From Haematococcus lacustris (Eukaryota > Chlorophyta > Chlorophyceae > Chlamydomonadales > Haematococcaceae), in contig JASKMD010000008.1 in assembly GCA_030144725.1 (NCBI GenBank), forward strand, positions 15,284,716-15,348,715: a DNA stretch of 64,000 nucleotides, read 5' to 3'. The notes beneath the pieces were generated by a model. It saw only the letters and a list, made by a program, of their open reading frames with translations, did no database searches and was not told the origin of the DNA. Below, in pieces: positions 10,683 through 64,000 of the stretch. The number at the start of each line of letters is the position of its first letter. Position 1 is the stretch's first letter. Position numbers and translations under genes: made by a program.

Positions 10683-10967
10683 CTACTGTGCCACAGCGGG
10701 CTGCTGCTGCTGGGCTGTGTGTGGCTTGTCTCGCAGCCGCTTGTACCCCAGGCCAGGGTACTCCTCGCCCTTGGCTGGCAGCGCTCCCTGGTCTGGCCAG
10801 AAGCACAGCTCCAGTGGGCGCCACCTGCTCTCCCCAATGCGCTGCATGTTCTGCGCTGCATTGCAGTCCCTATCTACCCACCTGCCTGCCTGTGGGGCTG
10901 GCTTGGCTTTAGCAGCCTTGCCCTGGGCCTTGCCTTTGCCCTTGGTGGGCTGGGTGGGCTCACCAAT
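10683..10967 (-). pseudogene. Fanzor C-terminal fragment (RuvC-III)
   Basis: Encodes a basic linker (GKAAKAKPAP), then RWVDRDCNAAQNMQRIG and the tail ending QQQQPAVAQ with stop TAG. DRDxNAAxNM is the RuvC-III signature of TnpB/Fanzor nucleases, whose Asp is catalytic. The N-terminal domains and the rest of RuvC are missing. Confidence 0.75.
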
Positions 10968-11189
10968 ATTAGTTGGTATTAATTGGTATTGCCAGGCCCC
11001 AGGGTGACAATGACAAGCGTCCTCTGGAACGCATGGTGAATGTGCTCACATGTGCACCTTTTTTTAGTAGCTCCAATCAGCATGGTCCTGGTGATGTAGC
11101 ATCAGGCTTGTGAATCTTCAGATTTTCAGTATTTCAGATTTTCAATTTTCAATGAAAAGCTACAGTAGCAGGCCCTCGAATGCTACGGC

Positions 11190-33592: not shown

Positions 33593-33597
33593 GCTGG

Positions 33598-38850: not shown

Positions 38851-41800
38851 ATGTCGGACGCATATTCAGAGGAGAGCTTCGATGACTACGAAGAGGACGA
38901 TTTTGAGGTGCGCTGGCCCCATCAGGTCATAACTTGTCGGCTTGTAGCTTACGCAATTCAGACCCACCCTGGCATGGCAGGCTGAGGAAGAGTACGATGT
39001 TCTCCCAAAGTCTATGATGAAGAGCAGTGCAGCCTCCCCTAAGCCAGCAGTCGCTGCAGTCACTCGCACCCAAGCTCCAGCCAGGGCATCACCCGCTGCA
39101 GGCAATCGACCTGTGTCAGGTGTGAAAACCTGCAGCACCTTGATCATCATAAACGCTGCGAGCACCAGGTGCCTGAGAAAAGGGAAGCCTTGTGGGACAC
39201 CCACACTAGGAACTGTCCCACACATACTCTGTGGGCGCCCAGGAACACAGGCGTGACAGGACCATAGCCAAGGCAGACATGCACCAATGCAGGTTCACAG
39301 CAGCTTGTGAGGGGCCAAACTCACACTGCTGTGCCGCAAGCTTCTGATGTTGTGTCCAAGGCGGATGGCCTCACAGTTGCTTGTAGAGGGGCAGCATCAA
39401 TGCTCCTTGCCCCTAGAGGGCAAAGAAGGCAGTCCCTGGTCCCACACTAGGGCCCTTAAAAGAGTCGAACCACCAGGGACCCCTAGAAATCAATAGGGAC
39501 CACTCAAATGGTGTTGAGCGGCTGTGTGGTGTATACCCAATGCACATGGACATGGTGCATGAGTGCCTATGACCTACACTATTGCCTGACCCCTGAGGGC
39601 TAGACGGCTGTCCATGTGCAATCACTGCTACCAAAGGCTGGAATGCTGATGCCCAGGGCAAAGCAGGCAGGCCAGGCACAAATGCAGCTCCGTATGGCTC
39701 CACAAGCTCTCCCCATATTGCTGCATTGTCAGTCGCAGCTGGTGCATTTGCAGCACATGCACAGCCTTCCAGTGACCCATGCAGCACCTTGGCCCTCAAC
39801 CTTGGGCCTTCATTGCAGTCGAACACACTAATTGTGAACCACTACAAAACAGTGTTTTTTCTGTGTGGAGTTCCCATCGCATGGCATGCTCATGGCCTAC
39901 ACATGGCATACACATGGTCACGGTCGCCTACCACCTGAAGCATTGCCTGACCCCTTTGACAGGGCGATGCTTAGAGTTGGCATGACAAAACATGCACTAA
40001 TTGTAAGCTGATGACAGCTTCAAGTGGGGGGGGGCACACACTACTGTGCCACAGCAGGCTGCTGCTGCTGGGCTGTGTGTGGCTTGTCTCGCAGCCGCTT
40101 GTAGCCCAGGCCAGGGTACTCCTTGCCCTTGGCTGGCAGCGCTCCCTGCTCTGGCCAGAAGCACAGCTCCAGCGGGCGCCACTTGCTCTCCCCAATACGC
40201 TGCATGTTCAGCGCTGCATTGCAGTCCCTGTCCAGCCACCTGCCTGGCTGCGGTGCTGGCTTGGCTTTAGCAGCCTTGCCCTGGGCCTTGCCTTTGGTGC
40301 GCTTGCTGCGCTTGGCTTGCGGTGGAGTGTTGGGCCCAGGCTCTGAGGCTGCTGCCTGTGTGGCTGCCTGGCTGCTGCGTGGGGTCTGTGGGGGCTTTCG
40401 GGGGGCCACCACTGGGCACCACATCATGCCCCGCACTGGCTGGTCACGCTGCTGGCTCCAGGCTGGGCGCACCAGGCGACGTTCCACCTGCCCTGCTGGG
40501 GGCTTCCAGCCTGCAGGCCTGGTGGCCCTGCGCTTGTTCAGCTGCCTCTCACAGGGCTGCTGGCCATTCACCGCTGAGCTGACCCGGCTGGTGCGGTGCT
40601 CATCCACAAGCACAACCCTGCCCCGCCTCTGGTCTGTCCCCCTGGATCTGCACACCACCTTGCAGCAGGCCCGCAGCACCGCATCAGCACCCCACCCACC
40701 CCTGGTGCCAATGCCAGCTGCTCCAAAAAAGACCACCAGCTGCTTGGCACACCCATGGCGCTCCATGGACACCGCCGCCATGTCGTCCTCCAACTGCAGC
40801 CATGCACACAAGGCACACACATGGTGGCTGACATGGTGGCACAAGGTTAGGCATGGCACAGTCAGCTACTCTTTCACTTCATGCCCAACCCCCACTCTCC
40901 TATCTATCACCCCCCACCCACCCTCACCTTGTTGAAGAACTGCTCCAGCGTCCGGTCCTGAGCTCCGTACAGCCTCAGCCGCTGCTCTGCCCACTTGGGG
41001 TCCAGGTACACCTCCCAGGTACCTACTTATAGCCAGGAGGCGATGTCACTCACTCTCGCACTCCCAAAGGGCACTCCGAAGGGCACTTCCAAAGGGCACT
41101 CCGAAGGGCACTTCCAAAGGGCACTCCGAAGGGCACTTCCTAAGGGCACCTCCAATATTATGTACTACCAGCATGGAAGAACCCCTCCACATCATGGCCA
41201 GATGCGAGTCAAGAAGGTGCAGGAGCTATACTCCAAGTACTCCAAGCTATACTCCAAGCTATACTCCAAGACCCATGCAGCAATGCACTGTGGGACAGCC
41301 TCTGTGCAGACCTCCATGACCTGCAGCCTAGCTCTTGTATACTGGCATTGTGCAGCACGCGGCACCGCTGCCCACGCACCTGCTCTGGCACTGAGCCATC
41401 ATCTCTCATCACCTGCGTTGCACCTCCTGCAGCACAGAGGCCGCTGGCCATCCCCACCACACCGCTGCTGTCGGATGCCGAGCTGCGAGCTCGGCGAGCT
41501 CGCCTGGCGCGTGCAAGGGAGAAGCTGCCGCACATCCCCTTGCAGGTAACCCTGAGGTAGCCATGCCTGCGTCATGCTGCCTTCCAGCAAGTCCAGCATT
41601 CCTCCCAGTGTGTGGCCCTAGACTGACAGTCAAAGCTGGTTCAGCTCAGGACACCGACCCCCTGCTCAGCACACTCTGCAGCTGCCAGCAGGAGTTCCGA
41701 CCACGCCGTGCCCTGTGCCCTGTGTCATTGCCTGTATCATTGCCTGTGCCTGTGCCAGGGTTAGGCTGTGTTCAGCAGTTACACACTTCACATCACTGCA

Positions 41801-44800
41801 ATTTCCATGCACTCGGTCACCATGTCATGAAGCCAGTGGCTCCATGCCCTGCAGGCTGTTGCCATGGAGGACGTGTTCGTGATGGTTTCGCTGTCAAAGT
41901 ACGACTTGTACAGCATGGCACGAGGGCCCTATGCCGGCTGCAAGGTAGCAGCTGTGCAGACCAACGATGATGCCAAAGAGGAGGAGACGCAGACAAACGA
42001 GGTGAGCAGCCAGACCCACACCATAGTGCTGGAAACACCTCCTTCACCCAGTTTCCTGCCATCGCAGGCTGGGGGCTGATGCCAATGCAGGCAGGCATAC
42101 GGCTGCTCACACGTACTCAGTTGTGTAGTGGTTGCAGTGTCATGATACTGTCAAGGCCATCAGGAAACTGGGCATGAGGGGTATCATGGGATGTCCAGAG
42201 CTGTCCACTCAGCGCTCCCTGTCATCCAGGACTGCTGAACACACTGTCCGTTTCCTTTCCTTGTCCCCCTCCTCCTCCTCCTCCTCCTCCTCCTCCTCCT
42301 TCCCCTCCTCCTCCTCATCATCATCATCATCACATCCCTGCACCCCTTCCCTTCCTCCTGCTCGGCCCCTCCGGCTCACCCTCAAACACACCTGCAGCCA
42401 GCGCAACGGGCCTACGCCGCCCAAGTCCCAGACGACCGCAACAAGATGAGTGAGGCCGAGGTGTTTGCCTTCAGCATGGAGGTCGGGGCCAGCGGTGGCG
42501 CGGAGGCCAGGTCCAGGGTCCAGGCCAGCAGCACCATGGGCGCCGCCACCTCACGCGTGATGAACATGTCGCCAGGCATGGAGCTCAAGCTGGCGCAGTT
42601 CATACGCTGGGCAGGGCCGCTGATGCTGGCCTGCCTGGGCATGGCCCCCAGTAGGTGCCTGGCCTGCCTGCTAGCCTCACCACTTGCCTCCTCGCCTGCT
42701 CACCTGCCTGCTCACCTGCTCACCTGCTCACCTGCCTGCCCACGGCTTTGCCTGCCCGCCCACGGCTTCAGCTGCCTGCCGCGCCCTCACTGCTCCACTG
42801 CTCACTGTGGTGTGTCAGAGGCAAAGCAGACACCCCTACCCTGGTCCCAAGGAGCTGGAGCAATGGCCGGCCTGCCTGCCCGCCTGTTTGCCTGTCCGCC
42901 TGCCTGCCTGCGGCCCACCTTCATGGCCCTTCCCTGCCCCTGCATGTTGTCCACTCTGTCTGACCAGGTGGCAAGGAGGTGACGTTCAGGCCGCCAGCAG
43001 CAGGCAGCCAGGGCCTCAGCGGCGGCCTGCTGCACCTCAACTGGCCAGAGCTGCTGGACCAGCGGCCTGTCACCGCCCTGGCAGCCTGCCCTAACCCACT
43101 GGAGCCGCTGCTGCTGGTCGCATACGGGCCTGTGGGGGCGCAGTTGGGGCCGGCTCAGCTCCTCAAGGCATGTGGCCAGCTGCCCCGGCCGGCCTCTGCC
43201 TGAGCCCTGCTGCAGCTACTGCCGTTTGCTGAATGCTCCTCAGCCTTTCATTCCTTCCTCCTTCAGCCACTGCCCTCTGATGCACTGCACATGCATGGTT
43301 CACAATACATCCATGTTCCATGCATGCCCACCACCCCTGGTGGACCTGGGCAGACCTGTGCTGACCTGCGCCTGCTGCCCTTGTGCTGCGCCTGTGTAAG
43401 GGTGCAGGACCATTCGCTGGGCAGCCGGGGCTGCCTGTGCGTGTGGGACCTCAGTGCTCCAGAGCGCCCACGCCATGTGCTCATCAGCGAGGGCGCACCC
43501 ACATGCTGTGCCTTCGGCCCACCGCCCGCCTCACACCTCGTGTTTGCCGGTGGGTGGCCTGAGACAACAACCCCAACACCCTGCTGTTCCCCTGCTGCCT
43601 TGCATGGCCTCACTATGACTGGTTGGGCCAAGCGCCTGCCTCCACACCTAGCCATGCCCACACAGTCACAGCCGCAGCTGTGTGGGCATGCCATGCCCAC
43701 ACAGTCACAGCAGCAGCAGCAGCAGCAGCAATGTCATCACCATCATGACGGGGTAGTGATCAGTGTTTCATGGACAGTGATGTGTGACGTTGGGTGCAAC
43801 CTGCCCATTGGTCTGCCATGGGTTGCGCAGGTATGGAGGAGGGCGGCGTTTGTGCCTGGGACTTGGATGAACCAAGCAGCCGGCACCCCAGCGAGCTGCT
43901 GGGCGGAAAGCCCACCCCCGCCCGCCGCCCAAGCTTCAGCACTGAGGGCGCCCCCATCATTGACACTGGGCTGTCTCCTTGCCTGGGCCCCATCACTGGG
44001 GTGGCCACGGTGAGCAAGGAAGGCGGCAGTCGCACCACGCCTTGCAATGTGCTGGCAGTCACCGCCTGGGGCGAGGTGCACGTGTACACGGCGAGCTTGG
44101 TGTCCGGCGCCGACGGCGGCGCCGCCGACATGGACACCGGGATGCGCATCGGCAGTCGCCTGCGCTTGTTGCGGAATGCGGGCGTGGTCAGGCTGGGGCT
44201 GGCGGCGCTGCAATCCGTGGACACGCTCATGACGCCCGTGCCCGCCTTTTGCCTCATGCCCCTCAGCGGTCCCAAGTATTCGGGGCAGGTGATCGTGGGG
44301 TCAGATGCCGGTCGATGCCTGCGAGGCTCATGGGTCGGGACAGCGCCAGCGCCCAAGGTTTTCCTCGCCGCGGACCAGACGTCGCCCGCTGCCGTGTCTT
44401 CCGCAGCAGCAAGAGTGCTTGCGTCCACCACACGTTGCCTGGCGGCTTCGCCGTTCTTACCTCAGGTGCGAGCGCGTGTGCCGTGGTGCCAGCTGTCCCT
44501 GGCTGTCACCCGCACCACACTCGCCTCTGCAGCTCCCACCTGCGTCGTCGTCTTCCTACTCATCGCCACCATTGGCTACTTCCCGTCATTCCGTGACGCT
44601 TTGCTGACGCGGTGCTTTCTTTTACTGTCTGCTGGCAGGCCTTCTTAGCTGGGCACAGCAATGGCAGCGTGGCGCTCCACACCTGCCTATCCGGCCCTGC
44701 ACACCTCCTATGGCCGGAATTGTCCGCTGGAGCCATCCTCGCACTAGCCTGGTCGCCCTGCCGGCCAGCATGCTTCTGGGTCCTGGACGCCTTATGTACG

Positions 44801-45362
44801 TTGCACGCATTCGACCTCACCAAGGTCAGCTTCCACAGCTCGCCACAAGTAACTGCCACCAACCACGGGGGCAAAGGAAGAACGTGCTATGGGTGGGGCA
44901 GTGTAGTCGTTTCATTGAGACAATGCATTGCATGAGGCCGGGGGGGGTGGCATCAGCATGGCGCAAGGGAGAAGATCGATCACAAAGCTTTAGCCGTCAG
45001 CCATGAAGTTACCGGGCCAAGAGTGCCTAAACGACGAGAAAAGTGTTGGCATGTGCCTGCAAGTGCAGGACGCATCCCGGCCTGTGCTCCAAGAAGCTTT
45101 CATGGTTCAAGGCAACGACCCCACCCTGGCCGCCCTGCCCACTCAGCTGGTCGCTGCTGGGCTGCAGCCCGGAGGCAAGTCCACGGCCGCTGTGCCTATG
45201 TTCGCGCTTGGGTATGACGATGGCAGCGTGCGGGCTCACGCCCTCGCACCCGCTCACCAGGCAGGTCCGGGTGTTGAGGTGGAGGTGCGGGTGATGCAGC
45301 AGCTGCTGAACCTGCCGCAGCAAACCTTGGTGGCGAATGGACACGGTGGAGCTGGGAAGTGA
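38851..45362 (+). CDS. WDR60: WD-repeat protein WDR60, dynein-2 intermediate chain
   Basis: The intermediate chain of cytoplasmic dynein-2, the retrograde intraflagellar-transport motor (human DYNC2I1; FAP163 in Chlamydomonas). Exons: 38851-38907 (MSDAYSEESFDDYEEDDFE), 38981-about 39119, a gap, then 41433-41545, 41855-42001, 42398-42650, 42968-43167, 43408-43549, 43831-44465, 44639-44824, 45069-45362; phases agree from 41433 to the stop. Diagnostic segments: the acidic DYE/DDFE head; LSKYDLYSMARG ... QTNDDAKEEETQTNE, matching the light-chain-binding region of animal WDR60; and WD blades (GCLCVWDLSAPERPRHVLI, TCCAFGPPPASHLVFAG, GGVCAWDLDEP, FLAGHSNGSVALH). The 43167 donor is probably GC (GCATGT). 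Exons between 39120 and 41433 are not resolved because a Fanzor element lies there on the other strand. TGTAA at 45394 is a candidate poly(A) signal. Confidence 0.87.
39782..40040 (-). ncRNA. candidate Fanzor guide-RNA block, copy 2
   Basis: Begins right after the TAG at 40043-40041, with GTGTGTGCCCCCCCCC, and runs to CAAGGTGCTG at the right end. It is nearly identical to copy 1 over its last 220 bases. Confidence 0.45.
40041..41011 (-). pseudogene. Fanzor (eukaryotic TnpB-like) RNA-guided nuclease, core and C-terminus
   Basis: Two exons: 41011-40928 (VYLDPKWAEQRL ... DRTLEQFFNK, donor GTGAGG) and 40793-40041. Features in order: QLVVFFGAAGIGT, a strand-loop typical of the Fanzor RuvC core; LVDEHRTSRVSS, matching the DE(F/Y)RTSKxCxxC region where the Glu serves as the rearranged RuvC-II residue and zinc ligands begin; MMWCPVVAP; a basic linker; RWLDRDCNAALNMQRIGE (RuvC-III); and the tail ending PAVAQ. 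The first zinc-ligand Cys positions read Ser here (RVSS; copy 4 has RVCS), so the zinc site is impaired. RuvC-I and the N-terminal guide-binding domains are absent: an inactive fragment with an open core. Confidence 0.78.
41024..41150 (-). promoter_or_regulatory. Fanzor 5' region: iterons and TATA box, copy 2
   Basis: Four 25-bp units made of alternating AAGTGCCCTTCGG and AGTGCCCTTTGG halves, then GAGTGAGTGACATCGCCTCC and TATAAGTA. The same arrangement precedes copy 3 (57016-57117). Confidence 0.6.
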
Positions 45363-45892
45363 GAGCTGTAAGAAGTTGGGTGGGTGCGGATGGTGTAACA
45401 CAGTAGCAAGCCCCTCCTTTCGCTTGCATAGTGCGCCCACAGCAGGCAAAGTGATATGTTTCACACACACGGGCAGGGCGCAGTCTTCATTCAGGTTCAC
45501 GAGGGAATGGGTGCGGGACTGATGCTGATGCGCGACCATGTACGGGTAGTCTGGTCGAGCCTCAACTCCCACTGCACATCGCGCACACACACACACACAG
45601 TGCTTAGGGTCCCTCACTGCACTCGGCCAATGACGGGGTGGCGACATGGTCATGACTATGACGGGAGTGTGACAGGAAGCAGGAGTAACCTGACCCTAGG
45701 AGGACGGGGTGGGACCCCCAGATGATGAAGAACAGGTTAAGGAGGGAGTCGATCAGGGTCAGGGAGTAGGACCTTCATGCAGCACCAGCAGGCTGCACCA
45801 GGCTGCCACCTTGATACCTCCACCGGCCTTCACCCCCCGCCAGCCCCCGACCCTTGCCAGCATCCTCCCCTGCCACTCATGCTAGCACTAAC
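45363..45892. other. convergent 3' region between WDR60 and DEGP7
   Basis: Contains TGTAA at 45367 and 45394 for WDR60 and a CA microsatellite at 45583-45598. The last short coding piece of DEGP7 (family ending ELRFDPxTAxW) should be here on the - strand but was not found. Confidence 0.45.
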
Positions 45893-48800
45893 CGTGGGCC
45901 AGTAGTTGAGGTCCAGCTTCAGTGTCAGCACCTTGGGCTGGCACGTCTCCAGGTGATGCATCTTGATGCGCACAAACTCACCATGGCCAAGGCCGCGAAC
46001 AACCTGCACAGCCACGTGTGAGGGGCCAAGCCTCGAATTTAGTCAAGCCGTCCGCCTGAACCAGCCCGGTCACGGAAGATGGGCCGCCGGGAAAGAGTTA
46101 GATGCCTGTGTGATGATCAGCATATATTCGCGGGCCCCATGCACCAGCATGGCCCTGCGGGGTGTGAACTCACACGCACCTCGAGGAATGTGTCGAGGTC
46201 AGGGGTAGGCTGACCATTGGCTTCTGTGATCCAATGCAGCGCGTACAGGCCGTAACGATGTGCAGGCGAGCCGTGGTGCCAGCGGCTGATGTACACGCCC
46301 GCGCCTTGTGGCAGTGACCCCAGCTCACGCACAGCGCGATGCGACGACTGTAGCTGCGCCCCGCACCAGTGTAGCACGCGACTTGTGCCCATGCCCGCCT
46401 CGCTACCCAGCTGCACCGTCACTTGCATCAGCTCAGTGCCGCGGAATATTGTGATTGGCAGCGACGGCAGAGGTGTGAGCGGCGACGCGGCCTGCTCGGT
46501 CACGGGGGCTGTTGTGTGGGGCCGTGCGACACTGCCTGTGTGCGCGCTGTCTTGAATCTGCGCGTCCACTCCGACCAGCTCCTGTGTCGCTTGGCTGCCT
46601 GCCATAGCGCTCGCTTTGCATATTGGCGCCTGCTGCCCCTGCTGCGCTTCGTTCTCTTGGCTTGGTTTCTCTAGCACCTCCTCTGCCTTGCGCTTCTTGC
46701 CTAAGTGCTGGCCTGGCGGTGCCTGCTCACATAGCCCCACAGCTCCTTCTGCAGCCACATAATGAGGCACTGGGCATGCCGCTGTTGCCTCTGGCTGTTC
46801 TTGAGCCAGGATTATGGCCTCCACGTCCCTAAAGCAGGTCACGGGGGTGCCAGCTATGGCCAGCACCATGTCACCGCAGCGGAGCTGGCTGGCAGCATGG
46901 CTGTCAGCCACGGTACCACGCACTCGCAGTACCTGTGGAGCGCAGGAGGGGCTTGGGTGGGGCAAGGTTGGGCAAGAAATCGTGTTTGCCTCCTGGGTGT
47001 GTGCGGGCCTGCCCCTGGCCACCGGAGGAGGGTAGCCCCTTGCCGCCGTTCCCATTAACACGGCAGGGAGGCTCTGCCGACACCGCTGCCTGCTGTCGCC
47101 AGCCTGCTCCTCAGCCTGCTCTTCTGGCTCCTGGACCCGGACGTTGCTCGTCAGCCTGCCTGCTTGGGTCTGAATATGTCATCAGACGAGCTGCAGTACA
47201 CCACCTCCTCCTCCTTCTCCTGCCAGCCTGCCCCACCGCCCTGCCGGCTCTCACCTGCCGTCTCTCAGGGTCCCGGCGGTCAAGCCGGCTCACCCAGCTA
47301 GCCGGCAGCCCAAACTGCGCAGCCTTGGACAGCAGCAGCGGCTCCAGCTCAGCGTCCAGGGTCCTGCAGGGCAAGAGTGCAGCAGTGCAGCACAGCAGTG
47401 CATGTGGGCCCCTCTCCTTCCACGTTTGCATCTTGTACCCCTCCCACCTCTCCCACGTGACTCTCCTGCTACCCCCTGCAACCATTCACTTGCAGCCTCC
47501 ATCTGTCCGTTTCCCATGCCAGCTGCTCCTCCTAACCCTGCCCTCCTCCCCCAGCCCCTCCCCCCTTGCTGGCCTGCTCCAGCCCCTGCCCTCCTGCAAC
47601 TGCCCTGCCCCCTTGCTGGCCTGCTCCCTGCCCTCCTGCTCCTCTGCTTCTGCCGGCCGCCCCTTGCTGCCCCTTGGCCGCACCAGACCCGTGGCGGCGG
47701 CAAGTCAGGCTGCTCCTCCAGGACCAGCAGCCGCTGCACCCAGGGCTGGAAGCAGGCGGTGGGCAGCCCCGCACACCACTCCCGCTCCTCCTTGTCCACC
47801 TGGTGCCAGCCAGGTAGCCAGGCAGTCAGGTAGCCAGCCATGCAGGGAGGCAGGCACGCAGCCAGGGGCACAGCAGCAGTCAGGCAGGCAGTCAGACAGT
47901 CAGGCCCAGGGCAGTGCGGGGAGCGGTGTTGCAGTGTTGTGTAGGGCGACAGGGGCACATGAGATCAACATGTGCCTGTACCCAGTATACACACCACACG
48001 ACAGACAGGGTGCAGGTCGTCATCCTTCAGCCTTGACACCCTGTCCCTCTGCTCTCTGAAGGGGCTGCCTGCACCCAACACCTCCTCTCAGCCTCAGCAA
48101 CCTCACCCACCCCAGCAACCACGGCACACCAGCACCCCCCAGCACCCTCAACACCCTCAGCCTCCATCACCTGGCTGGAACCTACAGACAGGCTGGCACG
48201 CCCCACCTGCCTGACTGCTGGCTGCTGCTGCCTGACCCGAGGGGCCTGTCCAGAAAGATAGAAATGAAATAAACAAATCTACGCAAAGCGTTCGCCTGCG
48301 TGACAGGGCCAAATAGGCCCCCACAAGCACATTTCTGCGTCTGGCTAGGTTCGAACCCGCGACCTTAGCATCCGCCGGAGCGACTTCCCTTGAGGATGAG
48401 GGGCCTGTCTACACACCTGCTCGGCATAGGACCCCCACAGGGCGCGTACTCGGCCTTCTGCATCCGTGAGCACCCCGCTGAAGGTGGCGCCAAAGTCCTG
48501 GTCCAGCTTCACCACCTCCTCGTGAACTGCACGGAACCTGCAGCAGCAGCCCCACACTCACCATTCTCGACCCGACCCAACCCAAACACTTTCAACCACT
48601 CGCTCACACTCACACATGCATGTGTGGCAAAGAAAGTGTGAGGAGGTGTGATGTCCGGCAGTCGTCTGGCACAAGGGGTGTCAACTTTGCCCTGATGCCT
48701 GGCGGTGGGCAGTGCTGCTGTTGCAAGCTGTCAGGCAAGACATGTGTGGCGCAGATGGCCTGCCTCCCACAGCATTACGTCAGCAGGCAGTGGCCTGACG

Positions 48801-51800
48801 CAAGCAGTGGTGGCGGCGAGCCAGGCCCAGCAGCAGGACTGACCGAGGCACATCAGCCGCAGGGATGGTGATGGCAGAGGTGGCGGTGGTGACCACAGAC
48901 TTGCGCTGCATGATCCGCAAAAACTTTGTGAGGCCTGCCTGCACAACACACGGGAGGCAAGGAGGGGCGAGGCCCTGCTCAGGCAACCACTCAGCAGGCC
49001 GTTGAGACCAGAGCTGCGGGCCATCGAGTACTGTGAGGTGGGTGCAATAACATTAAGGGCTCAGCACCTCGCACCAGCTGCCATCCTGGTCCTGCCTTGC
49101 CTCTGGTGCACAGGGCTTGCGCCCCTGAGGGGGCCTTACTGCACCTGAGCTCCCTCCTGCCATCCAGTGTGGGCCAGTGAGGTTATCTGCAAGCTGGGTG
49201 CCATACCCGGCCATGACTCGTTGTTGCCCTACAGGAGTTGTGTTTGCCTCATGCCCAGCAGCCAATAACCCCCAACCCCTCCTGCCTGCTCTCCTGCCTG
49301 CATGTTGGCCAGCAAACCCCACCCCAGCCCAGCCCCTTCAGACCTGAGCAAACTATGACACCCTGGCTGCCAGGGCATGAGTGCAGCAGTGTCCGGGTTG
49401 TTTGCCTGATGCCCAGCAACTCTTCCATTTCAGCACCAACCTTCCCTTTCAGTCCAAACAAACTGCCCACACGCACGCTCGCCTGCCTCTTGCACTGCCA
49501 GACCTGAACAGACTGTGACACCCCCTCTGATAGCACCGCAGGGGTGTTGCAGGGGGGTTTCACTACTGACCAGCTGACCAGCAGCCCTGGATGTGCTGGT
49601 GTGTGACTGACAGTGTTGCCTGGCTTGCCTGACTGGGAATCGTGCCCATAGTGGAGCCCCTCGCTCCCAGCTGTGCTGCATTGTGTGTTGACTCGTGCAT
49701 CCTCCCCCATACACCCATACAGCATCTGACACAAAACACACCACTGCCACATCTTCACCACCACCAGGCGGCAGCAGCAGCAGCAGACGCCAAAGGAGAG
49801 GGGATGCAGCCAGGCCTGCCTGGCCCTACCCAGGCCCTCTTTGTATACAGACAGGCATTGTGAGCGCCTGTCTGACTGTCCAGCTGCACGCCGCCCTCCC
49901 GCCTGCCTGCGCCCGTTGTAACGCACCAGGACCACGGTGTCGCCCCGGTGCAGGTGCGGGTGCGGCAGCAGCTCCGCTGCCAACACCTTGGCCCGCGCCT
50001 CAGCAGGCAACGCTCGGGGGTCGTAGCTGACCAAGGCAAAGTTGTAGAGAGGGTGGAGGAAGCTGCGTAGGGGTCAGCCAGGCCAGACTGCCAGTGTCAT
50101 ACAGTGCTGGGTGTACCTCCCTGCCTGACTGCCACCGGGCGTTTGCCCGCCCATGTCCTTGCTCACACGTGTGCCTTCCTACTTCCCTGTCCGAAATCCC
50201 CGCCCCGTCCCACCCCGCCCCGCCCCGCCCCGCCTGACGCCCTGCACTGTGTGACCCACCACACGGTTGCGCTGATCTCTGCTGGGTGGGCCCCAAAGGA
50301 CAGGTTGCAGTCACAGGGCCCCACAGCCACGGTGTTGCGGTCCACCAGTACCAGGCCCAGCCTCGCTCCGTGGTGCACCACCAGACCATTGCCCTGGGTC
50401 AGCAGCAGCAGCAGCAGCAGCAGCAGGTATGCGTCTGTCTGGGCAGGTTCAGGTCTGGGCAGGGTTTGGTCTGGGCAGGGTCCCTGGTCAGGTTGTCAGG
50501 CATAGGCAGGGTGATGAGAGAGCGGGTGTGTTGTGGAAGCAGGGGGGCCAGCTGTGGCCTATAGCATGCTGTACAGGGTGGTGCAAGGGCTCAGGGTCAG
50601 GGTTGACCACAACGCTGTGGAGGGCAATGTATGGGCTACAGCATAATGTGTGCAACATCAGGTCGAGTGGGCTGGGAGGCGGGGGTTGAGGGGCACAATG
50701 GGGAGCGGTGAAGCTGAGCTGAGAGCCGGCAGAGGTCAGAGCAGGGTCAGGTCTGAGTCACAGCATGGGGTCGAGCGGGGTGTGTAGGGGTTGTGGGGCG
50801 CAATGTGGAGCGGTGCCGACCACCCTACCCCTAGGCGCCGCGCCCTACCGCAAAGCTGCGTGCATGCACGCCGTCAGTGAGTGCCACCAGGGGGATGTCC
50901 ACGTCCACCAGCACTAGGCTACAGCGCAACCGCTCCTCCAGCTGCACCCAGGTGGTCCAGCCACAACCAGGCAGTGGCTCAGGAGGACTGGGGTGAGTGC
51001 CTGGGTTGATGGCGCCGATGGTGGCAGTGGTGGTGGCAGTGGTGGCAATGCTGCTGCTGCTGCTGCTGCTAATGGTAATGATCAGTACATGGCGTTACAT
51101 GGCATTTGTCAAACATGGCGTTGCTGCTGGCTCAGCACCACCAGCATCAGCGCTGCTGCTCATGATGGCCAGGTTGTCATCCTGTGCCCAGTGCACAGCC
51201 TGCCCAGCTGCTGCCTACTGCCAGCGTGATGTCAGCAGTGGCATAAGCCTGCAACGCGTGAGCTGTGCTGTGTAGGCCCCGCACCTTCCTGTCCTGGTAC
51301 TCGCTGCCAAGGGGCTGCTCAGGCTCCAGGGAGGAGGTGGTGGACAGCCCACACACCCCATTCACGTGCACGCTCCTGGAGCTGCCCGCTGGTGAGGGGC
51401 TGGCAGGCGGGGCGGGCTCCGCAGGAGTCTCAACCTCTTGTGTGGCTTCAGCAGGCTGGGCAGCTGCCCCTGCACCCACCCCTGGCTGGGGGCCTGGGCC
51501 AGCGCAGTGAGGGGTGCCAGCTGCCACTGCTCCCTCCTGGGGTGCTGGGGTCAGGGGGGGGCAGCTGGTGGTCAGGGGTGAGGGGGGGCCTGCTGGGGCA
51601 GGCTGGGGGTCGGGCACCCCTGGCGGGTAGTCAGTGGTGGAGCGCCATGTACCTAGGGGGGAGGCAGCAGGGCAGGCGGGCAGGGGAAAGGGGAAAGGGG
51701 GGTGGCAGTAGTGCAGGGGGTGTAGTGAGGGGCTTGAGCTTATGCTTAAGCAGCTTGGGAAGCAAGTGCGCATCAGGGCAGGAAGGAGTTTGGCATACAG

Positions 51801-54800
51801 CAAGGTTGGGCTGTGGCGCAGCATGCGGTGCTGCTGCCATGGTGGTTACTGTAATGGCTGAGGAGAGCTGTGACCGACTTTGCATATTGAATGAAGCCAG
51901 CCCTCAAAGGACGCCCCTTGAGCCAGCCTTGTCCCTGTCAATGCTGCAGAGCGCTGTTCACCTCAGGCAGTCCTGGGCGGTGCAACGGCTTCAAGGCGGC
52001 ATCAGGATGAGGGGCGATGCCACTCCACCCTGACCCCAGTCACTCCTGTGTGGTCTGTGCATTCAGCTTTTTTTGTACTGTGCCACTGACCCGCACCTAG
52101 CAGCCGACCAGGTGGCAGAGGGGGCCCGGATCTGAACCCACCTGTTGCATCATCTCGCTGCCAGTACACCGGAGGCCCGTACCTGGAGGGCGCAGCAGGC
52201 AGGGAGGGGGAGGGGGAAGGGGTGTGGAGCTCGAGTAGGGTGGAAAACCCGTATCCCTCCTGTCACATGGGAGGGGGGCCCCAGGCTTACTTGGTGAGCT
52301 GGTCACCTCAGAACATGCCAGGCAGCTGCCAGTCCTACCCGCAGGCCTGTGTGGCGCCCCAGTCTCCCTCCCTCCTTGCGCAGCTGCCCACTCACCTGCT
52401 GGCCGGCCCTGCCCTTGAGGTTTGCTTGCCTGCCCATCCTCTTCAATCAAAACCGCAAGCGCTGCCCGCCCGCCCGCCCGCCCGCCCACCGGCGTGCACA
52501 CTCGCCCGCCCGCCCGCCCGCCCGCCGGCGTGCACGCTTGCCCGCCCGCCTCACCACTGCCGGTCCATGTGCAGGATTGCATGCAGGCGGCGGTTGCGGT
52601 CCTTGTGTGTGAAGTACTCCAGGGGGGTGCGGGCGCCATGAGGCAGGCCACGCAGCACACGGGCAAAGCTGAGCAGGTCAGGGGTGGGCTGGCCCGCCAG
52701 GGCAGTGATGATGGCGTGCTTGGGAAGGGCGGAACGGCCCTGGGTGCAGCACGCAATCTTCCTCATCAAGGGCAGTGAAGGAGCCACTGTAGCCCGCACT
52801 GTGCCACTAGGCCACATTTGCTTGCCCTTCCTTGTCCCATGCCCACCCTCCCCTAAGAAGGGGTGTTTGTATGCATGCATCTGCACTTGAGATGATGCCG
52901 TGCCTAGCTCTCACACTGCATGGGTGGTGAGCGCTGGGTCATATTGCACTCACTGCCCCCTGCCCACCCTTCCCCCTGCCCACCCTTCCCCCTGCCCACC
53001 CTTCCCCCTGCCTGCCCTCCCCCCTGCCCGCCCTCCCCCTTGCCTGGCTTCACTGACCAGCATGTATCCCGGCTCTGCCACATAGACCTGTCCTGGTCTG
53101 GTCCGCTGGTTCCTTGCTGCCTGGTAGCTGAGTGCGTGCACAGTGCCGCCACACAGCTCTAGGAAGGATGCAGGGGTCACGCTGTGCAGGTCCGTGGCCA
53201 CCACTGACACCTCAACCTACGAGGCCACCAGGGGCATGGATGAAAAAGGGTGCGCATGTGAGCACATTCACCATGCGTTCCAGACACTGACACTGACGTT
53301 CCAGACACTGACACCTCAACCTACGAGGCCACCAGGGGCAGGGGCAGAAGCACGGGCAGGGGCACGGGCAGGGGCAGGGCAGGGGCAGGGTGCAGGGGCA
53401 ACAAGGGTGAACTCAGCTTGAATAGAGAGCACAAAGGTGAGCAGGGAGATGAGTAGGGAAGGGGAAGTAAGGGGGCAGGCCAGCGGGCCAGCAGGCATGC
53501 ATGCGGTCGGGCGAGAGGGGGGCCGGCAGGAGGGGAAAGGAGGGGTGTGTGGGCAGGCGGGGATGACTCACCGGCAGTCCGCCTCGCTCCAGGCTGAGGG
53601 CCACAGGCTGGCCCACTGCATCGTCAAGGATTTCCTCCAGGGGCAGGAAGTGCGTGACCACCTGCAAGCAGCCAGCCAGGCGGGAGGACCATGGGGTCGG
53701 GCCTGTTTCAATGCTGCCGCTAGTTACCCGGCATGAGGGGATTCAATCTTGATAGGGACAAGGTAGTTCAGAGCAGAGGAGGTTTTGGCCTGTAAGGCTT
53801 GTGCCCGCTGGTCACGTGCAGAAGGGATAGGTGTGTGTAGGCTGAACGTCTGCGCTGCTGAACCATGCAGTCTATGACCTGCTGTGCCTGCCTGGCAACC
53901 TGGCCTCGACGGCGCTGGAGGGCTCTGGCCTGGGCCCTGGCGAGCTCCCACCAACACATGATAAAATCCGTGACCACGTGGAGCGTCATTGCTCTCAGAA
54001 CCCCAGCCCAAGAGCCCTGGCGACCTCTAGGGCTGGTTAGGGTTGGTTTGTGTCGCCAGGCTGTCAGCCTTCAAGCATTAAAGCTGTTAGTTTTGATGAG
54101 GTGCCCAGTGGTCAAGGGGGTTTGCCCCAGGAACGAGTGCCACCGGAGTGGGGTTGGTAGTCATCAAGGGTGCGACCGAGGATGCTACTACTTGTTTGTA
54201 GTAGCTGAGTGAGATTACCCACAGACCAACATGTTGTTCCTTGTTGAATAAGTTTTGTTTGTCTGTAAGGCTTGTGCAACACACATGACTGCACACTCTA
54301 TGGCTGGGGGAGAACTACAAGGCGACACTAGGTTGTTGTGTGCCCTGGGGATGGTGTGCTAGGCTGCCTGCCTGGCTGAGGGGGTGCAGCGCACCTGGCC
54401 GTTCACGCGGACCAGCACATCCCCCACCTCCAGCACCCCGTCCGCAGGGCTGCCCGGCACCACGCTGTCCACCACCAGCAGGCCAGTGGTGGACAGCTCC
54501 CCGTCCCCTGCACTGCCACAGCGCTCAGCAGGGGAGGCGGTGGATGCGCGGTTGAGGGGCAGTTGAGTGGCGGTTGAGCGGCCGTTTGAGGGCGGTTGAA
54601 GTGCACGGTTGAAGAGGGGCGATTGAGGGGCGGTTATGGGGTGATGGAGGTAGCTTTGTGGGTCAGCCTCGTCCTCACCTGCCGTGGCCCTCACCTGCAG
54701 CTCACCTCACCTGCATGACCATGGGTGCGAGCAGGGGCAGCCCGCACACAGCGCTCTGTCTCCTGCCGCAGGCCCAGCCGCCGCACCTGCAGCCAGACGC

Positions 54801-57800
54801 CATGCCAGTCCTCAACTGCGCCATGAAGCCGCCTGGCTCCTGGCTCCTGGCTGAATCCTACCAGGGCGGCTGCGCACAACACCCTCGGCCTGCTGGCTGC
54901 TGGACCTTCAAGTGTGTGTTTATCTCAACCTAGAACTGCATGCTGACATGCGCAGCAGGCACTGGGCCTGGCAATACCAATTAATACCAAACAATTAGTG
55001 CATGTTTTGTCATGCCAACTCTAAGCATCGCCCTGTCAAAGGGTTCAGGCAATGCTTCAGGTGGTAGGCGACCGTGACCATGTGTATGCCATGTGTAGGC
55101 CATGCGCATGCCATGCGATGGGAACACCATACAGACAAAACACTGTTTTGTAGTGGTTCACAATTAGTGTGTTCAACTGCAATGAAGGCTCAAGGTTGAG
55201 GGCCAAGGTGCTGAACTGAGGCGGTAGGGTTACTGTTACACCGGTTGAGGGCCTCAGTTCCGGCTGCCTCAGTTCAGCACCTAGCCGTGTCAAGTCAGGC
55301 AGAGCTGCAGCTGATGCACTACCCTCTACCCCGTTGTGGTGCCTACAATCCAGTAGCAGGGGTCACCTCCCCCTTACCCCCTCCCACCCAATTCCTGGTC
55401 ATGGGATCAGCCCCTAACCCCCCAACCCTAACCCTGATCCTAAACGGATCAACCCTCCTTCCCCCTGCCCGTCTGGTCTGGCTAGATCAGGTCTGGCCTA
55501 ACCTGGGCTGGCCTGGCCTGCTCCGTCTTCCACCCAGCTGCCTGGTCTGCCAGTTACCCCAGAACATCGCACAGCCATGCCGGGGCGCACCTCGTCAAAG
55601 CCGCGGAAGCTGAAGGTGACCTGCAGGTCGCCCCGAGGCACCGAGGGGGCGGGCCACTGGTCTGCCGGGCTGCCCACCTCCTTGCTGGCCTGAGGGGCAG
55701 ACAGGGCAGGCAGGGCAGGCAGGGCAGGCAGGGCAGGCAGTGCGCAGTGAGGACACTGCTGTGTGCAGCAGCCACAAGCAGGTCACAGCATCAGCTAAGG
55801 GGTAGGGGCAGTTCCATGTGTCATTGTGTTCAGTTGCTGGGCCACAGACTGTCGTGACCGCAGCACTGCAGGCACTGAACCTGGCAAGGCAGCTGCACTG
55901 TGCCTGCTCTGTGCATCCCCCTGTGCCCCGAGGCGTTGCGCCTTGCCCGGCTATCGCCCCACACTGCCCACAATGCTCGCATGCATCATGTGGTGCCAGC
56001 ACCCATGACCACAGAGCTGCTCTGCCTCCTACACTGCCTTCTTGACTCGCATCTGACCATCTTGAAAACCCTCCATAATGTGGAAGGGTTCTTCCATGCT
56101 GGTAGTAAACGCTGGCCATAATAGTGCTGGTCACTATTGCTTTGCCACCTCCGCATCGTTGCTGCCAGGAAAGGCCGCTCCAGCACCTGGATGATGCGCA
56201 GGGCTCGCTGCACCCGCTCCAGGGGCAGGTAGTAAGCAGAGGCCGCCTTGTTCTTGCCCCCAGCGTTTAGGCCCACGGCCCGGCCTTGAATGTCGATGAC
56301 TGGAGAACCGCTGCTGCCACCCTTGGTGCCAGAGGCAGCTTGCAGGTAGACTACGCAGAAACGAGCAGAGCAGTCCGGCGGTGCGGTGTGGTGCGGGGCG
56401 GCTACTGGGTGGGGGCCTACCCAGCCAAGCTGTGTGCCAGCAATCTTATCTGTGGTGGTGCTGATGTCAGTGATGCAGCCAGCGGAAGTGCTCAAGCAGA
56501 GCAAGACTGCCAGGAACAGTGCGTGTGTTCCTCCCCACCCACCCTTCCTTGTCAGGGATGACCTAGGTGTTGGTATTAGTCTGGCTTACAGGTGTTGAAG
56601 TCGTTGTAGCCTTTGCCATACACAGGGGCATCCCGGTCCAGGCGAGCTATCACGCCTGGCAGGATTGACACCTGCAGCCACACCAGCAGCCAGGCTGTGT
56701 GTGCCTGGTCTGGGTGGGGTCACAGCGCTGGGTGCTGACAGTGCAGGCAGCTTCTTAGCTGTGGGCTGCCAGCATTGCTCACGTCATGCTCACTGGAAGC
56801 AAAGTGGCCTGCATGACGAGCTTTGTCCTAGACCCTGCAGCTAGAGTTGTAGCATAGTGTCGAGCATGAGAGCAGGGACATGAGGTTCGGCCACACTCTG
56901 AGCACCTCTGTCATGCTGTCAGTGCGTGTGAGCACATTCACCATGCGTTCCAGAGGACGCTGGTCATTGTCACCCTGGGGCCTGGCAATACCAATTAATA
57001 CCAACTAATATTGGAGGTGCCCTTAGGAAGTGCCCTTCGGAGTGCCCTTTGGAAGTGCCCTTCGGAGTGCCCTTTGGGAGTGCGAGAGTGAGTGACATCG
57101 CCTCCTGGCTATAAGTAGGTATCAGCAGGTGTTAGCTGATAGGAGCCTAGTGGCGCAATGCCTCCTAGGAAGCGGCCCAGTGCCGCGGAGGAAGAGCCGC
57201 TTCCGATTGAAAGCCCGCGAAAACAAGGTTCGTTGTAGTCGCAGTGTGGTCCGCTGCAACTGTGCAGTCCGGTGACCTCCGCGCTGCTCACATCGCTTCT
57301 GTTCATGCCAGCGCAGGTCCTAGCAGTCCTCCAAGCAAACAACGCGAGGAGCGAAGGGCTGAATGGAAAACCCAGCGCCGACAGGTACGCACCCCCGCCT
57401 TGTATGCCCCAGCACTGCTCGTGTCCCCGCACTATTGGTGTCCCCGCATTGCCGGCCTGTCAAAATATTGATCGTAATTGGCTGCAGGTGATCAAAGTCC
57501 CGGGTGGCGCCGTGCTGCGCGGCTGCAAGAAGACGAAGCGAAAGCTACTGGCCCATTTCCAGCTGATGGCTGGGGTGCACAGTCAGCTCCGCGTCATCGC
57601 CTCGCTATTTGTGCTGCGGATCTTCCTGACATGCCTGGTGGGCTACCCCACCCCGGGGTACCGCAGCGCCCCCACACCTCCAGCCGTGCAGCCTCCCCTA
57701 GCCCCTGATGCTGCACCCCTACCGCTGGAGCTGTGCTTCTGGCCAGACCAGGGAGCTCTGCCAGCCAGGGGCAAGGAGTACCCTGGCCTGGGGTACAAGC

Positions 57801-60800
57801 GGCTGCGAGACAAGCCACCCAAGGCCCAGCAGCAGCAGCCCGCTGTGGCACAGTAGTGTGTGCCCCCCCACTCGAATACCAAACAATTAGTGCATGTTTT
57901 GTCATGCCAACTCTAAGCATCGCCCTGTCAAAGGGGTCAATGTTGTAGGTGGTAGGCGACCTCGACCATGTGTATGCCATGTGTAGGCCATGAGCATGCC
58001 ATGCGATGGGAACACCACACAGACAAAACACGGTTTTCTAGTGGTTCACAATTAGTGTGTTCGACTGCAATGAAGGCTCAAGGTTGAGGGCCAAGGTGCT
58101 GTCAGTGCATGCTGCCATAGGTTGAACTGGAAGATGTTGCGCCAGGATTGCTGGCAGTTGAGGCCACCAGCCTGTATGATTAACGAAATTGACAAAAAAA
58201 CTAGCTCCTCAGTGACCACAAGAATGCACCTTGGCCAAACCACGTACTTCAATTGTGGGCAGCTCAAAGGAGGTCCACAGCACAGCACAGCACAGCACAG
58301 CACAGCACAGCACAGCACAGCACAGCACAGCACAGCACAGCACAGCACAGCACAGCGCAGCGCAGCGCAGCGCAGCACAGCACAGCACAGCGCAGCACAG
58401 CACAGCACAGTACAGCAGTCAGTGAAGGGCGTGATCTGCCGGCCTCCCAGCGCACCTTTTCTCCTGAATCATTGCCCACCACCCTGATGTCCAGCCCCAC
58501 ACTGGCGGCCTCAGGCGCAAGAGGCACCTCCGATACCGTCATGAACGTCAGCTTGGCGGGGTCAAAGCGCAGCAGCGCAAAGTCGTGGACAGGGTCTGCA
58601 GGCAGGAGGAGCTGTAACTAGCTGCATGCCCTGCAGGCCCTCCTGGACACACAGGGCCAAACAGCCTGAGCTGACTACTGTCAGACACTGCGACAGCCAC
58701 AATCTAAACCCTGCCCATCCCCATCCCCATCCCCATCCCCATCCCCATCCCCATCCCCATCCCCATCCCCATCCCCATCCTGCCCCTGCCCCTGCCCCTG
58801 CCCCTGCCCCTGCCCCTGCCCCTGCCCCTGCCCCTGCCCCTGCCCCTGCCCCTGCCCCTGCCCCTGCCCCTGCCCTGGCCCTGCCCCTGCCCCTGCCCCT
58901 GCCCCTGCCCCTGCCCCTGCCCCTGCCCCTGCCCCTGCCCTGGCCCGGCCCTGGCCCTGCCCCTGCCCCTGCCCCTGCCCTGCCCCTGCCCTGGCCCTGC
59001 CCCTGCCCCTGCCCCTGCCCCTGCCCTGGCCCTGCCCCTGCCCTGGCCCTGCCCCTGCCCTGGCCCTGGCCCTGCCCCTGCCCCTGCCCCTGCCCCTGCC
59101 CCTGCCCCTGCCCCTGCCCTGGCCCTGCCCCTGCCCCTGCCCTGCCCCTGCCCCTGCCCTGGCCCTGCCCCTGCCCTGGCCCTGCCCCGGCCCTGGCCCT
59201 GCCCCTGCCCCTGCCCCTGCCCCTGCCCCTGCCCCTGCCCCTGCCCCTGCCCCTGCCCCTGCCCTGGCCCTGCCCCTGCCCCTGCCCCTGCCCTGCCCCT
59301 GCCCCTGCCCTGGCCCTGCCCCTGCCCTGGCCCTGCCCCTGCCCCTGCCCTGGCCCTGCCCCTGCCCTGGCCCTGCCCCTGCCCTGGCCCTGCCCCTGCC
59401 CTGGCCCTGCCCCTGCCCTGGCCCTGCCCCTGCCCCTGCCCTGCCCCTGCCCCTGCCCCTGCCCCTGCCCTGGCCCTGCCCCTGCCCTGGCCCTGCCCCT
59501 GCCCTGGCCCTGCCCCTGCCCCTGCCCCTGCCCCTGCCCCTGCCCCTGCCCCTGCCCCTGCCCCTGCCCCTGCCCCTGCCCCTGCCCCTGCCCTGCCCCT
59601 GCCCTGGCCCTGCCCCTGCCCTGGCCCTGCCCCTGCCCCTGCCCCTGGCCCTGCCCCTGCCCTGCCCCTGCCCTGGCCCTGCCCCTGCCCTGGCCCTGCC
59701 CCTGCCCTGGCCCTGCCCCTGCCCTGGCCCTGCCCCTGCCCTGGCCCTGGCCCTGCCCTGGCCCTGCCCCTGCCCTGGCCCTGCCCCTGCCCTGGCCCTG
59801 CCCCTGCCCTGGCCCTGCCCCTGCCCCTGCCCTGGCCCTGCCCCTGCCCTGGCCCTGCCCCTGCCCCTGCCCCTGCCCCTGCCCCTGCCCTGCCCCTGCC
59901 CCTGCCCTGCCCCTGCCCCTGCCCTGCCCCTGCCCTGGCCCTGCCCTGGCCCTGGCCCTGCCCCTGCCCCTGCCCTGGCCCTGCCCCTGCCCCTGCTTCT
60001 GCCCTGCCCCTGCCCTGCCCCTGCCCTGGCCCTGCCCCTGCCCTGGCCCTGCCCCTGCCCTGGCCCTGCCCCTGCCCCTGCCCTGGCCCTGCCCCTGCCC
60101 TGGCCCTGCCCCTGCCCCTGCCCCTGCCCCTGCCCCTGCCCTGCCCCTGCCCCTGCCCTGCCCCTGCCCCTGCCCTGCCCCTGCCCTGGCCCTGCCCCTG
60201 CCCTGGCCCTGCCCCTGCCCCTGCCCCTGCCCCTGCCCCTGCCCTGCCCCTGCCCCTGCCCTGCCCCTGCCCCTGCCCTGCCCCTGCCCTGGCCCTGCCC
60301 TGGCCCTGGCCCTGCCCCTGCCCCTGCCCTGGCCCTGCCCCTGCCCCTGCCCCTGCCCTGCCCCTGCCCTGCCCCTGCCCTGGCCCTGCCCCTGCCCTGG
60401 CCCTGCCCCTGCCCTGGCCCTGCCCCTGCCCCTGCCCTGGCCCTGCCCCTGCCCTGGCCCTGCCCCTGCCCCTGCCCCTGCCCCTGCCCCTGCCCTGCCC
60501 CTGCCCCTGCCCTGCCCCTGCCCCTGCCCTGCCCCTGCCCTGGCCCTGCCCTGGCCCTGGCCCTGCCCCTGCCCCTGCCCTGGCCCTGCCCCTGCCCCTG
60601 CCCCTGCCCCTGCCCTGCCCCTGCCCTGCCCCTGCCCTGGCCCTGCCCCTGCCCTGGCCCTGCCCCTGCCCCTGCCCCTGCCCCTGCCCCTGCCCTGCCC
60701 CTGCCCCTGCCCTGCCCCTGCCCCTGCCCTGCCCCTGCCCTGGCCCTGCCCTGGCCCTGGCCCTGCCCCTGCCCCTGCCCTGGCCCTGCCCCTGCCCCTG

Positions 60801-63055: not shown

Positions 63056-63205
63056 ATAGAGGCACACACACGAGATGGGCGGAGCTGAAGTGGGCGATAG
63101 GCACACTAGCATCAGCCTTACACTGATGAGCTCGCAGCCTGTATATAGATAGAACTCTTGCGTTGTTTTGGAGTAGCATGAGGGCTATAGGAATGTGTGT
63201 TGCTT
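63010..63205 (+). repeat. family-2 3' block (tRNA-like repeat), second copy
   Basis: Diverged copy of 11190-11395: AAGGGGATGTGTGTG, GGAGCTGAAGTGGG, AGGCACACTAG, TTACACTGATGAGCTCGCAG, GTAGCATGAGGGCTAT. It overlaps the stop of the preceding ORF. The B box is lost here. A partial third copy (ACCCCTCACAAAGGGGATTTGTG) lies at 63465-63560. Confidence 0.5.
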
Positions 63206-63559: not shown

Positions 63560-64000
63560 GGCTGTTGGATGTGTGGCTGCAAGGCTGTTGCATGGGGGGC
63601 CTGTGGGGGCTTGCGGGGGGCCACTACCGGGCACCACATTGTGCCCCGCATTGGTTGATCACGCTTCCAACTCCAGGCTGGGCGCAGCTGGCGCAGGTCC
63701 ACCTGCCCTGCAGGGAGCTTCCAGCCTGCAGGCCTGGTGGGCTGCTTATGGTCCAGCTCCTCCTCACAGGGCTGCTGGCCACTCACTGCTGAGCAGACCC
63801 GGCTGGTGCGGTGCTCATCCACAAGCACCACCCTGACCCGCCGCTGGTCTGTGCCCCTAGGCCAGCACACCACCTTGCAGCAGGCCCGCAGCACCGCTTC
63901 AGCACCCCACCCTTACCTGGTGCCAATGCCAGTTGCACCAAAAAACACCACCAGCTGCTTGGCATGGTCATGGCGCTCCATGGACACCTCAGCCATGTCG
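63560..64000 (-). pseudogene. Fanzor family 1, copy 4 (runs off the window end)
   Basis: The - strand from 64000 reads a diverged version of copy 2: KQLVVFFGATGIGTR, then an in-frame TAA (about 63919) where copy 2 has GGT, then LRACCKVVCWPRGTDQRR, LVDEHRTSRVCSAVSG, RPAGWKLPAGQV and MRGTMWCPVVAPRK. One zinc-ligand Cys (RVCS) absent from copy 2 is kept here. Similarity to copy 2 stops near 63560, before RuvC-III. An intron with donor GTAAGG at the TAA is an alternative, but the frame resumes at once, favouring a stop. Confidence 0.7.

Follow-up and report, generated by a model that had tools for sequence, protein, structure and literature searches.

We examined a 64,000-nucleotide stretch of the Haematococcus lacustris genome (assembly GCA_030144725.1, contig JASKMD010000008.1, positions 15,284,716 to 15,348,715 of the forward strand; hereafter, the window) and found that it contains four deletion derivatives of one Fanzor-like element, here called copies A, B, C, and E, together with a fragment, D, at its edge. 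Comparison of the window with itself returned repeats at 39782-40175, 54983-55213, and 57722-58101 and an iteron/promoter block common to 41020-41124 and 57017-57121 (E-values of 1e-46 to 1e-154, this block included), and it added copy E (match at 10424-11050) and fragment D (63560-64000). Parental coordinates below refer to a near-full-length copy on contig C32 (locus L068 and its neighbor L069), which runs for 3,550 bp from the promoter repeats through the tail and was compared with the whole window by blastn (E up to 1e-6, low-complexity filter on). The window copies and their parts are as follows.

10415..10428, minus strand: right target-site duplication of copy E, TGCTGATTGGAGCT, 14 bp, perfect
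10429..11068, minus strand: copy E, 640 bp, 5' module joined to parental 3056-3550
11069..11082, minus strand: left target-site duplication of copy E, TGCTGATTGGAGCT, 14 bp, perfect
39774..39786, minus strand: right target-site duplication of copy A, TGCTGCATGGGTC, 13 bp, perfect
39787..41269, minus strand: copy A, 1,483 bp, non-parental 5' module, seven iterons, TATA-like box, parental 2315-3550, tail
40080..40796, minus strand: Fanzor C-terminal coding part of copy A, VVLVDEHRTS to DRDCNAALNM
41022..41034, minus strand: TATA-like box GGCTATAAGTAGG of copy A
41064..41149, minus strand: seven 12/13-bp iterons of copy A, at most one mismatch
41270..41282, minus strand: left target-site duplication of copy A, TGCTGCATGGGTC, 13 bp, perfect
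54964..55208, plus strand: copy B, 245 bp, 27 nt of the 5' module joined to the 218-nt tail; match to parental 3338-3550
56914..56925, plus strand: left target-site duplication of copy C, TGCTGTCAGTGC, 12 bp, perfect
56926..58096, plus strand: copy C, 1,171 bp, 5' module, iterons, TATA-like box, and N-terminal exons (parental 54-670) joined to parental 3170-3550
57017..57077, plus strand: five iterons of copy C, at most one mismatch
57107..57119, plus strand: TATA-like box GGCTATAAGTAGG of copy C
58097..58108, plus strand: right target-site duplication of copy C, TGCTGTCAGTGC, 12 bp, perfect
63560..64000, minus strand: fragment D, parental 2560-2977, which runs off the window with no tail seen and contains a stop

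Placed on the parental map, these copies are complementary deletion derivatives of one element, as a preliminary description of this DNA had proposed. Copy C has the promoter, N-terminal exons, and tail that were ascribed to it and lacks the core, and the copy said to consist of the ends is copy B. Copy A was described as keeping the promoter and the RuvC core; it does keep the promoter, but it begins at parental base 2315, past RuvC-I at base 2050, and thus contains the alternative Glu and RuvC-III without RuvC-I. The reported copy with a left end plus tail fits copy E, except that E lies outside the span that had been given for the family. The same description held that the locus outlines the full element, but parental 671-2314 (approximately 1.6 kb, including RuvC-I) has no match in the window, so the full element cannot be read from the window. 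A common left end was likewise not borne out: iterons and the TATA-like box are common to A and C, while the starting sequence differs between A, C/E, and the parental copy. The 5' module of copy A (41165-41269, minus strand) resembles a separate stretch near copy C (approximately 56031-56115, plus strand), so this module may be an independent repeat. A full-length copy had been proposed as a target for a genome search, and the copy on C32 answers to this in being near full length; it is, however, damaged, with bases missing at RuvC-I (relative to L034) and residues missing after the alternative Glu, and its 5' end falls within the iterons and may be truncated. It is flanked by an imperfect 15-bp duplication with 2 mismatches. 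Elsewhere in the window, positions 687-761 align with parental 2918-2995 over 78 bp (74% identity), which may reflect a remnant or chance similarity in repetitive coding sequence.

The family carries most of the catalytic signatures of Fanzor proteins. A search with the window protein found 1,339 homologues; of the 120 listed, all but the window's own entry carry the name Haematococcus lacustris (119). In the 325 homologous proteins over which we counted motifs, the RuvC-I Asp lies in a DPG motif at 79 of 84 matched sites (all in homologues, since no window copy has RuvC-I), an alternative Glu follows [TS][TS] and stands six residues ahead of the first zinc-knuckle position at 254 matched sites, and RuvC-III reads DRD at 297 of 314 sites. 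DPG in RuvC-I, the alternative Glu, and DRD in RuvC-III are all Fanzor signatures (PMC10711439, PMC3627910). Four long predicted homologues (P0132, P0133, P0136, and P0142) combine N-terminal parts with GIDPG, VVLVDEHRT[ST], and [DG]RDCNAALN. The distance from Asp to Glu is 185 residues in 47 of 69 proteins, which is above the 120 to 160 of the search expression in PMC10711439 and within the 125 to 275 of PMC3627910. The zinc finger is absent, with CxxC at none of 254 first-knuckle sites and CPxC at none of 277 second-knuckle sites; the first knuckle instead reads SSAV (182 sites), SSIL (32), SSAM (11), or other residues (29). A second subfamily is marked by DEF, found at 51 of the 254 alternative-Glu sites. 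The C4 zinc finger is given as strictly conserved in PMC3627910 and as present in many, not all, Fanzors in PMC10711439, and a large lineage that lacks it while mostly keeping the RuvC residues offers a good way to probe what Fanzors require.

The comparison with Fanzor/TnpB profiles that had been suggested for this protein gave a mixed outcome. The best PF07282 score, 25.3 bits for P0002, falls below the curated cut-off of 26.3, P0005 reaches 22.7, and the other scanned proteins score lower or not at all; the window's own open reading frame (ORF) gave no PF07282 match. The precomputed annotation of five listed homologues does include PF07282. NCBIfam returned nothing over its cut-off for four proteins, searches of solved structures by sequence returned no Fanzor or TnpB chain, a protein-alignment scan of viral contigs returned no relative, and an AlphaFold2 model was poor (mean predicted local distance difference test score, 45). 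We consider the assignment as Fanzor-like to be supported by motif and not by fold, because PF07282 is below its cut-off, no structure matched, and the model is poor.

Searches of the 308-Mb assembly (597 contigs) indicate that these copies belong to an abundant family. The right end GGTTGAGGGCCAAGGTGCTG, a 20-mer, occurs with up to 2 mismatches at 1,477 + 1,531 places, compared to 2 + 1 for the reversed control, giving approximately 3,000 right ends genome-wide, and a 17-mer of this end without TGCTG occurs exactly at 553 + 595 places, compared to 0 + 0 for its control. We dropped an earlier count of CAAGGTGCTG as ends (3,452 + 3,491 versus 66 + 69 reversed) after 25 of 28 fetched sites proved unrelated, and used the longer pattern. 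Haematococcus is diploid (PMC7617258), and the assembly contains loci that look like haplotype twins (L019/L022, and L046/L062 with common flanks), so haploid right-end numbers will be lower. A 14-mer of RuvC-I occurs exactly at 322 + 328 places (control, 0 + 0), and since the pattern lengths differ, its ratio to the right ends is only a hint of an excess of 3' ends. For analysis of individual copies, we fetched 36 of 100 listed right-end places, leaving out L033 and L055 as too short, and added the four window copies, L005, L022, and the inner copies L036b and L047b, for a total of 42 tested copies (the twin L019 was dropped).

The duplications of copies A, C, and E (13, 12, and 14 bp) are perfect and all start with TGCTG, in line with the earlier suggestion of target-site duplications at the CAAGGTGCTG end. 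In gene direction, the final bases of the element are AAGGTTGAGGGCCAAGG, and because the duplications start with TGCTG, the CAAGGTGCTG end can be read as element ...CCAAGG plus target TGCTG; we rejected TGCTG as element sequence, since the left duplications place it in the target as well. For copy B, inspection by eye gave no more than the 6 bp TGCTGA in common with the left flank, and the best computed match, 8 bp, is at the control level. Defining a duplication as an exact right-flank prefix of at least 12 bp that recurs within 2.2 kb upstream, we found one in 13 of the 42 copies (12 of them independent, since L036b and L057 have the same flank), with lengths of 12 to 17 bp, while pairing the right flank of one copy with the upstream sequence of another gave 6 in 1,706 pairings, and 5 of these 6 pair loci with common flanking sequence. 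In 9 of 13 cases, the duplication is preceded by A. One proposal that these duplications bear on is an IS607-like Fanzor2 element mobilized by a serine recombinase, prompted by the occurrence of Fanzor2 proteins in IS607-type elements; since serine-recombinase elements give no duplications (PMC3627910), whereas clear ones of 12 to 17 bp are present here, we regard it as close to untenable.

TGCTG was part of the pattern that selected the genome copies, so its frequency is informative for two unselected sets, the window copies, which were found by similarity, and the 17-mer ends. It directly follows the right end in all four window copies and in 85 of the first 100 exact ends. Of the 15 exceptions, one is shifted (TTGCTG) and the rest are one letter off (TTCTG, CGCTG, TACTG, TGCTT, TGCTA, TGGTG, or TGATG), a pattern that later mutation and loose target choice would explain equally. 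We consider the variable duplications and the TGCTG target to be strongly supported. A fixed TGCTG raises the possibility that the Fanzor nuclease itself supplies the target cut, with the 3' end of the RNA reading into TGCTG as the start of the guide and target choice being partly RNA guided. The duplications of 12 to 17 bp are indeed near Fanzor guide length (a 15-bp heteroduplex in SpuFz1, PMC10432273). The fixed motif would, however, fit equally with an endonuclease preference or with pairing between the RNA end and the target. Published Fanzor cuts are distal to the target-adjacent motif, yet priming needs a nick at the start of TGCTG, and we consider a target cut supplied in this way very improbable.

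Across the copies, the 3' end is constant, the 5' ends are variable, and internal deletions are frequent. Three copies (L034, L067, and L032) begin inside coding sequence and have perfect duplications of 12, 14, and 12 bp, respectively; in five others (C, E, L053, L065, and L036b), a short 5' part is joined to a 3' part; and A, L037, and L045 contain 5' sequence that is absent from the parental copy. Where both sides of a deletion junction could be placed (C, L053, L037, and A), GT..AG is absent, which is unlike a splice product, and we rejected that origin for these junctions. All six copies that clearly span the predicted intron between FFKK and LEEDM retain it (A, L034, L039, L059, L067, and L068; L031 and L048, which could not be placed clearly, are left out of this count), and C, L059, and L068 also contain the non-coding sequence that separates the first N-terminal blocks. 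Most of the tail is gone from several copies, including L037, which retains the last 17 to 18 nt and is flanked by a 15-bp duplication; little of the tail may therefore be required for mobility. An ordinary cut-and-paste DNA transposon with internally deleted derivatives would be expected to leave copies like the five that keep short 5' and 3' parts, but the variation in duplication length and the lack of a fixed 5' end make this explanation highly unlikely.

Variable duplications combined with 5' truncation are characteristic of target-primed reverse transcription. The explanation that we prefer, and hold with about even confidence, is that this Fanzor1-like family was amplified as a retroposon-like element copied by machinery acting in trans; the evidence for a retroposon-like mode of spread is moderate. 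Under this explanation, an unspliced (or differently made) RNA ending in the final bases given above would serve as the template, the target would be nicked at CA|TGCTG, a reverse transcriptase and an endonuclease would act in trans, and early stops and template jumps would yield the 5'-truncated and internally deleted copies. The machinery would perhaps be Penelope-like, since Penelope-like elements are the class for which the spread of intron-containing genes has been reported, which makes them the most natural choice. In a rotifer, Penelope elements are reported to move such genes in trans and to leave target-site duplications (Arkhipova et al. 2013, PMC3846280), and the genes that they moved resemble the Haematococcus family in containing introns, in their target-site duplications, and in their 5' truncations. 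They differ in that the duplication in the case shown is 8 bp and that no pLTR-like terminal repeats or partner were identified in Haematococcus.

Several observations weigh against copying of this kind. Retained introns (here predicted from sequence) are unexpected of ordinary mRNA retroposition, a short 5' sequence joined to a 3' part is unexpected of a purely 3'-started process, and 29 of the 42 copies have no exact duplication of at least 12 bp within 2.2 kb. We also found no reverse-transcribing partner with the Fanzor tail in the domain scans described next. The GIY-YIG domain (PF01541) has only 3 matches in the genome, and the PF14529 endonuclease locus that was fetched (L083, one of 9 genomic matches) has no similar tail. 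All distances were taken on contigs for which the list of exact right ends is complete; there, the nearest exact right end lies approximately 166 kb from the GIY-YIG locus on C1 and approximately 447 kb from the PF14529 locus on C1. In the RVT_1 scan, the best 150 of 4,540 candidates were scored, with classes unsorted.

Retained introns would be accounted for by DNA copying, and a non-autonomous Helitron2-like rolling-circle element is a possible, if doubtful, alternative; its replication would start at the 3' end and might stop early (one-ended transposition), with duplications at the truncated copies. The CRe-1, CRe-2, and CRe-3 elements of Chlamydomonas reinhardtii, which encode Fanzor1 and were placed in Helitron2 on the strength of ends that match those of Helitrons (Bao and Jurka 2013, PMC3627910), show the same pattern of an intact 3' end, 5' truncation, internal deletions, duplications of approximately 7 to 19 bp, and a multi-exon Fanzor1 gene. 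Helitron_like_N domains are present in the Haematococcus genome (18 matches), but none of the three such loci that we checked (on C1, C2, and C22) has an exact right end within 189 kb, a search that covered exact ends, so that diverged ends are possible. Verified Chlamydomonas Helitrons insert after TTTT without duplication (PMC3627910), whereas the target here is TGCTG, and L037 lacks a 3' hairpin arm and still has its 15-bp duplication. Insertion without duplication at full-length copies would be the mark of a Helitron2-like element; the sole near-full-length copy has the imperfect 15-bp duplication, with a 5' end that may be truncated.

With the retroposon-like explanation retained, the Haematococcus family is still best seen as a variant of the CRe-type algal Fanzor elements. 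Both occur in a green alga and have a multi-exon Fanzor1 gene, a kept 3' end, 5' truncation, internal deletions, variable duplications, and occasional extra 5' sequence. They differ in target (after TTTT for CRe, TGCTG here) and in that the CRe ends match Helitrons, while no such link was found for the Haematococcus ends (exact ends only). The likeness is one of description. The CRe percentages were given over 150, 70, and 35 loci, compared to approximately 3,000 right ends here. Retained introns within a retroposon-like pattern, in Haematococcus as in Chlamydomonas, bear on whether the Helitron label for CRe is correct.

The statement that Fanzor transposons are poorly described in green algae is partly right; it overlooks the Chlamydomonas Fanzor1 elements of Bao and Jurka and a report on Auxenochlorella, in which a Fanzor-encoding element described as uncharacterized is the most abundant repeat (PMC12636532). 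That repeat and the Haematococcus family, likened by description, are both Fanzor-encoding and dominant in a green alga. Repeats make up 47.3% of the Haematococcus genome; most of them are short, and they are arranged in complex tandem patterns (PMC7617258). In addition, the available text of the two Haematococcus genome papers (PMC7617258, PMC10400597) contains no mention of Fanzor. The literature that names both Haematococcus and Fanzor is one Auxenochlorella work in two versions, whose available text does not describe the Haematococcus family, and within incomplete literature coverage we found no printed description of it.

The tail is also a candidate guide RNA, a role that we infer by analogy with characterized Fanzor systems. 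An intact protein of this family would probably be an RNA-guided nuclease that uses the tail RNA, and the short tail-bearing copies would then be "ghost" guide units. SpuFz1 offers a parallel in having gene copies alongside many copies without an ORF that retain their ends along with the presumed guide-RNA region (Saito et al. 2023, PMC10432273); it differs in having inverted repeats and 134 ghost loci, while the Haematococcus family has variable duplications and variable 5' ends and is described here at the DNA level. The tails of 19 of the 42 copies gave a consensus fold of -39.3 kcal/mol, in which 2 of 45 pairs have a compensatory change and the covariation term is +0.39, and thus give no support for a conserved RNA structure. 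Rfam had nothing at the gathering threshold in the window and two sub-threshold matches in 8 loci. If the tail is a guide scaffold, the guide would begin with the duplication of the copy itself, and therefore every tail-bearing copy, even one without an ORF, would match its own empty site. An unlikely but consequential extension of this idea is that an RNA-guided nuclease gene spreads as an intron-keeping retroposon whose tail serves as the 3' end for copying and also as the presumed guide scaffold, with the guides cutting the empty homologue. If this were true, intact Fanzor could cut the empty homologue in a diploid alga, which would favor the spread of thousands of copies. With its approximately 3,000 ends, its clean duplications and fixed 3' end, and its defined target motif, the family makes Fanzor movement in eukaryotes testable.

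The surroundings of the copies include other genes and repeats. A likely host gene at approximately 46117-58600 (minus strand) encodes PDZ domains and serine-protease-like sequence (the latter by eye), and copies B and C appear to sit antisense within its predicted introns. Another dispersed repeat, 78% identical between its two occurrences, lies beside copy E (11223-11348) and beside fragment D (63060-63186). Coding parts of Gypsy-type long terminal repeat retrotransposons (protease, reverse transcriptase, RNase H, integrase, and chromodomain) occupy 21886-26791 and 31229-35382 on the plus strand. An ORF at 20171-21715 (minus strand) with an RNase H domain (PF00075) adjoins short repeats of the CTACAGTACTGTAG type; we rejected it as the 3' end of a long interspersed nuclear element, as the matches seen were mostly driven by short repeats and there was no convincing duplication. 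A CCTGCC-type low-complexity repeat of approximately 3 kb at 58704-61766 contains long ORFs on both strands that are probably spurious. Outside the window, locus L082 (C32:739300-746800) consists of tandem 2,047-bp units, each with a Fanzor tail at its end followed by CGCTG; it was rejected as an autonomous partner, as it matches the parental copy over approximately 131 nt of tail and in short repeats. Nearly evenly spaced RuvC-I matches on C56 also suggest arrays.

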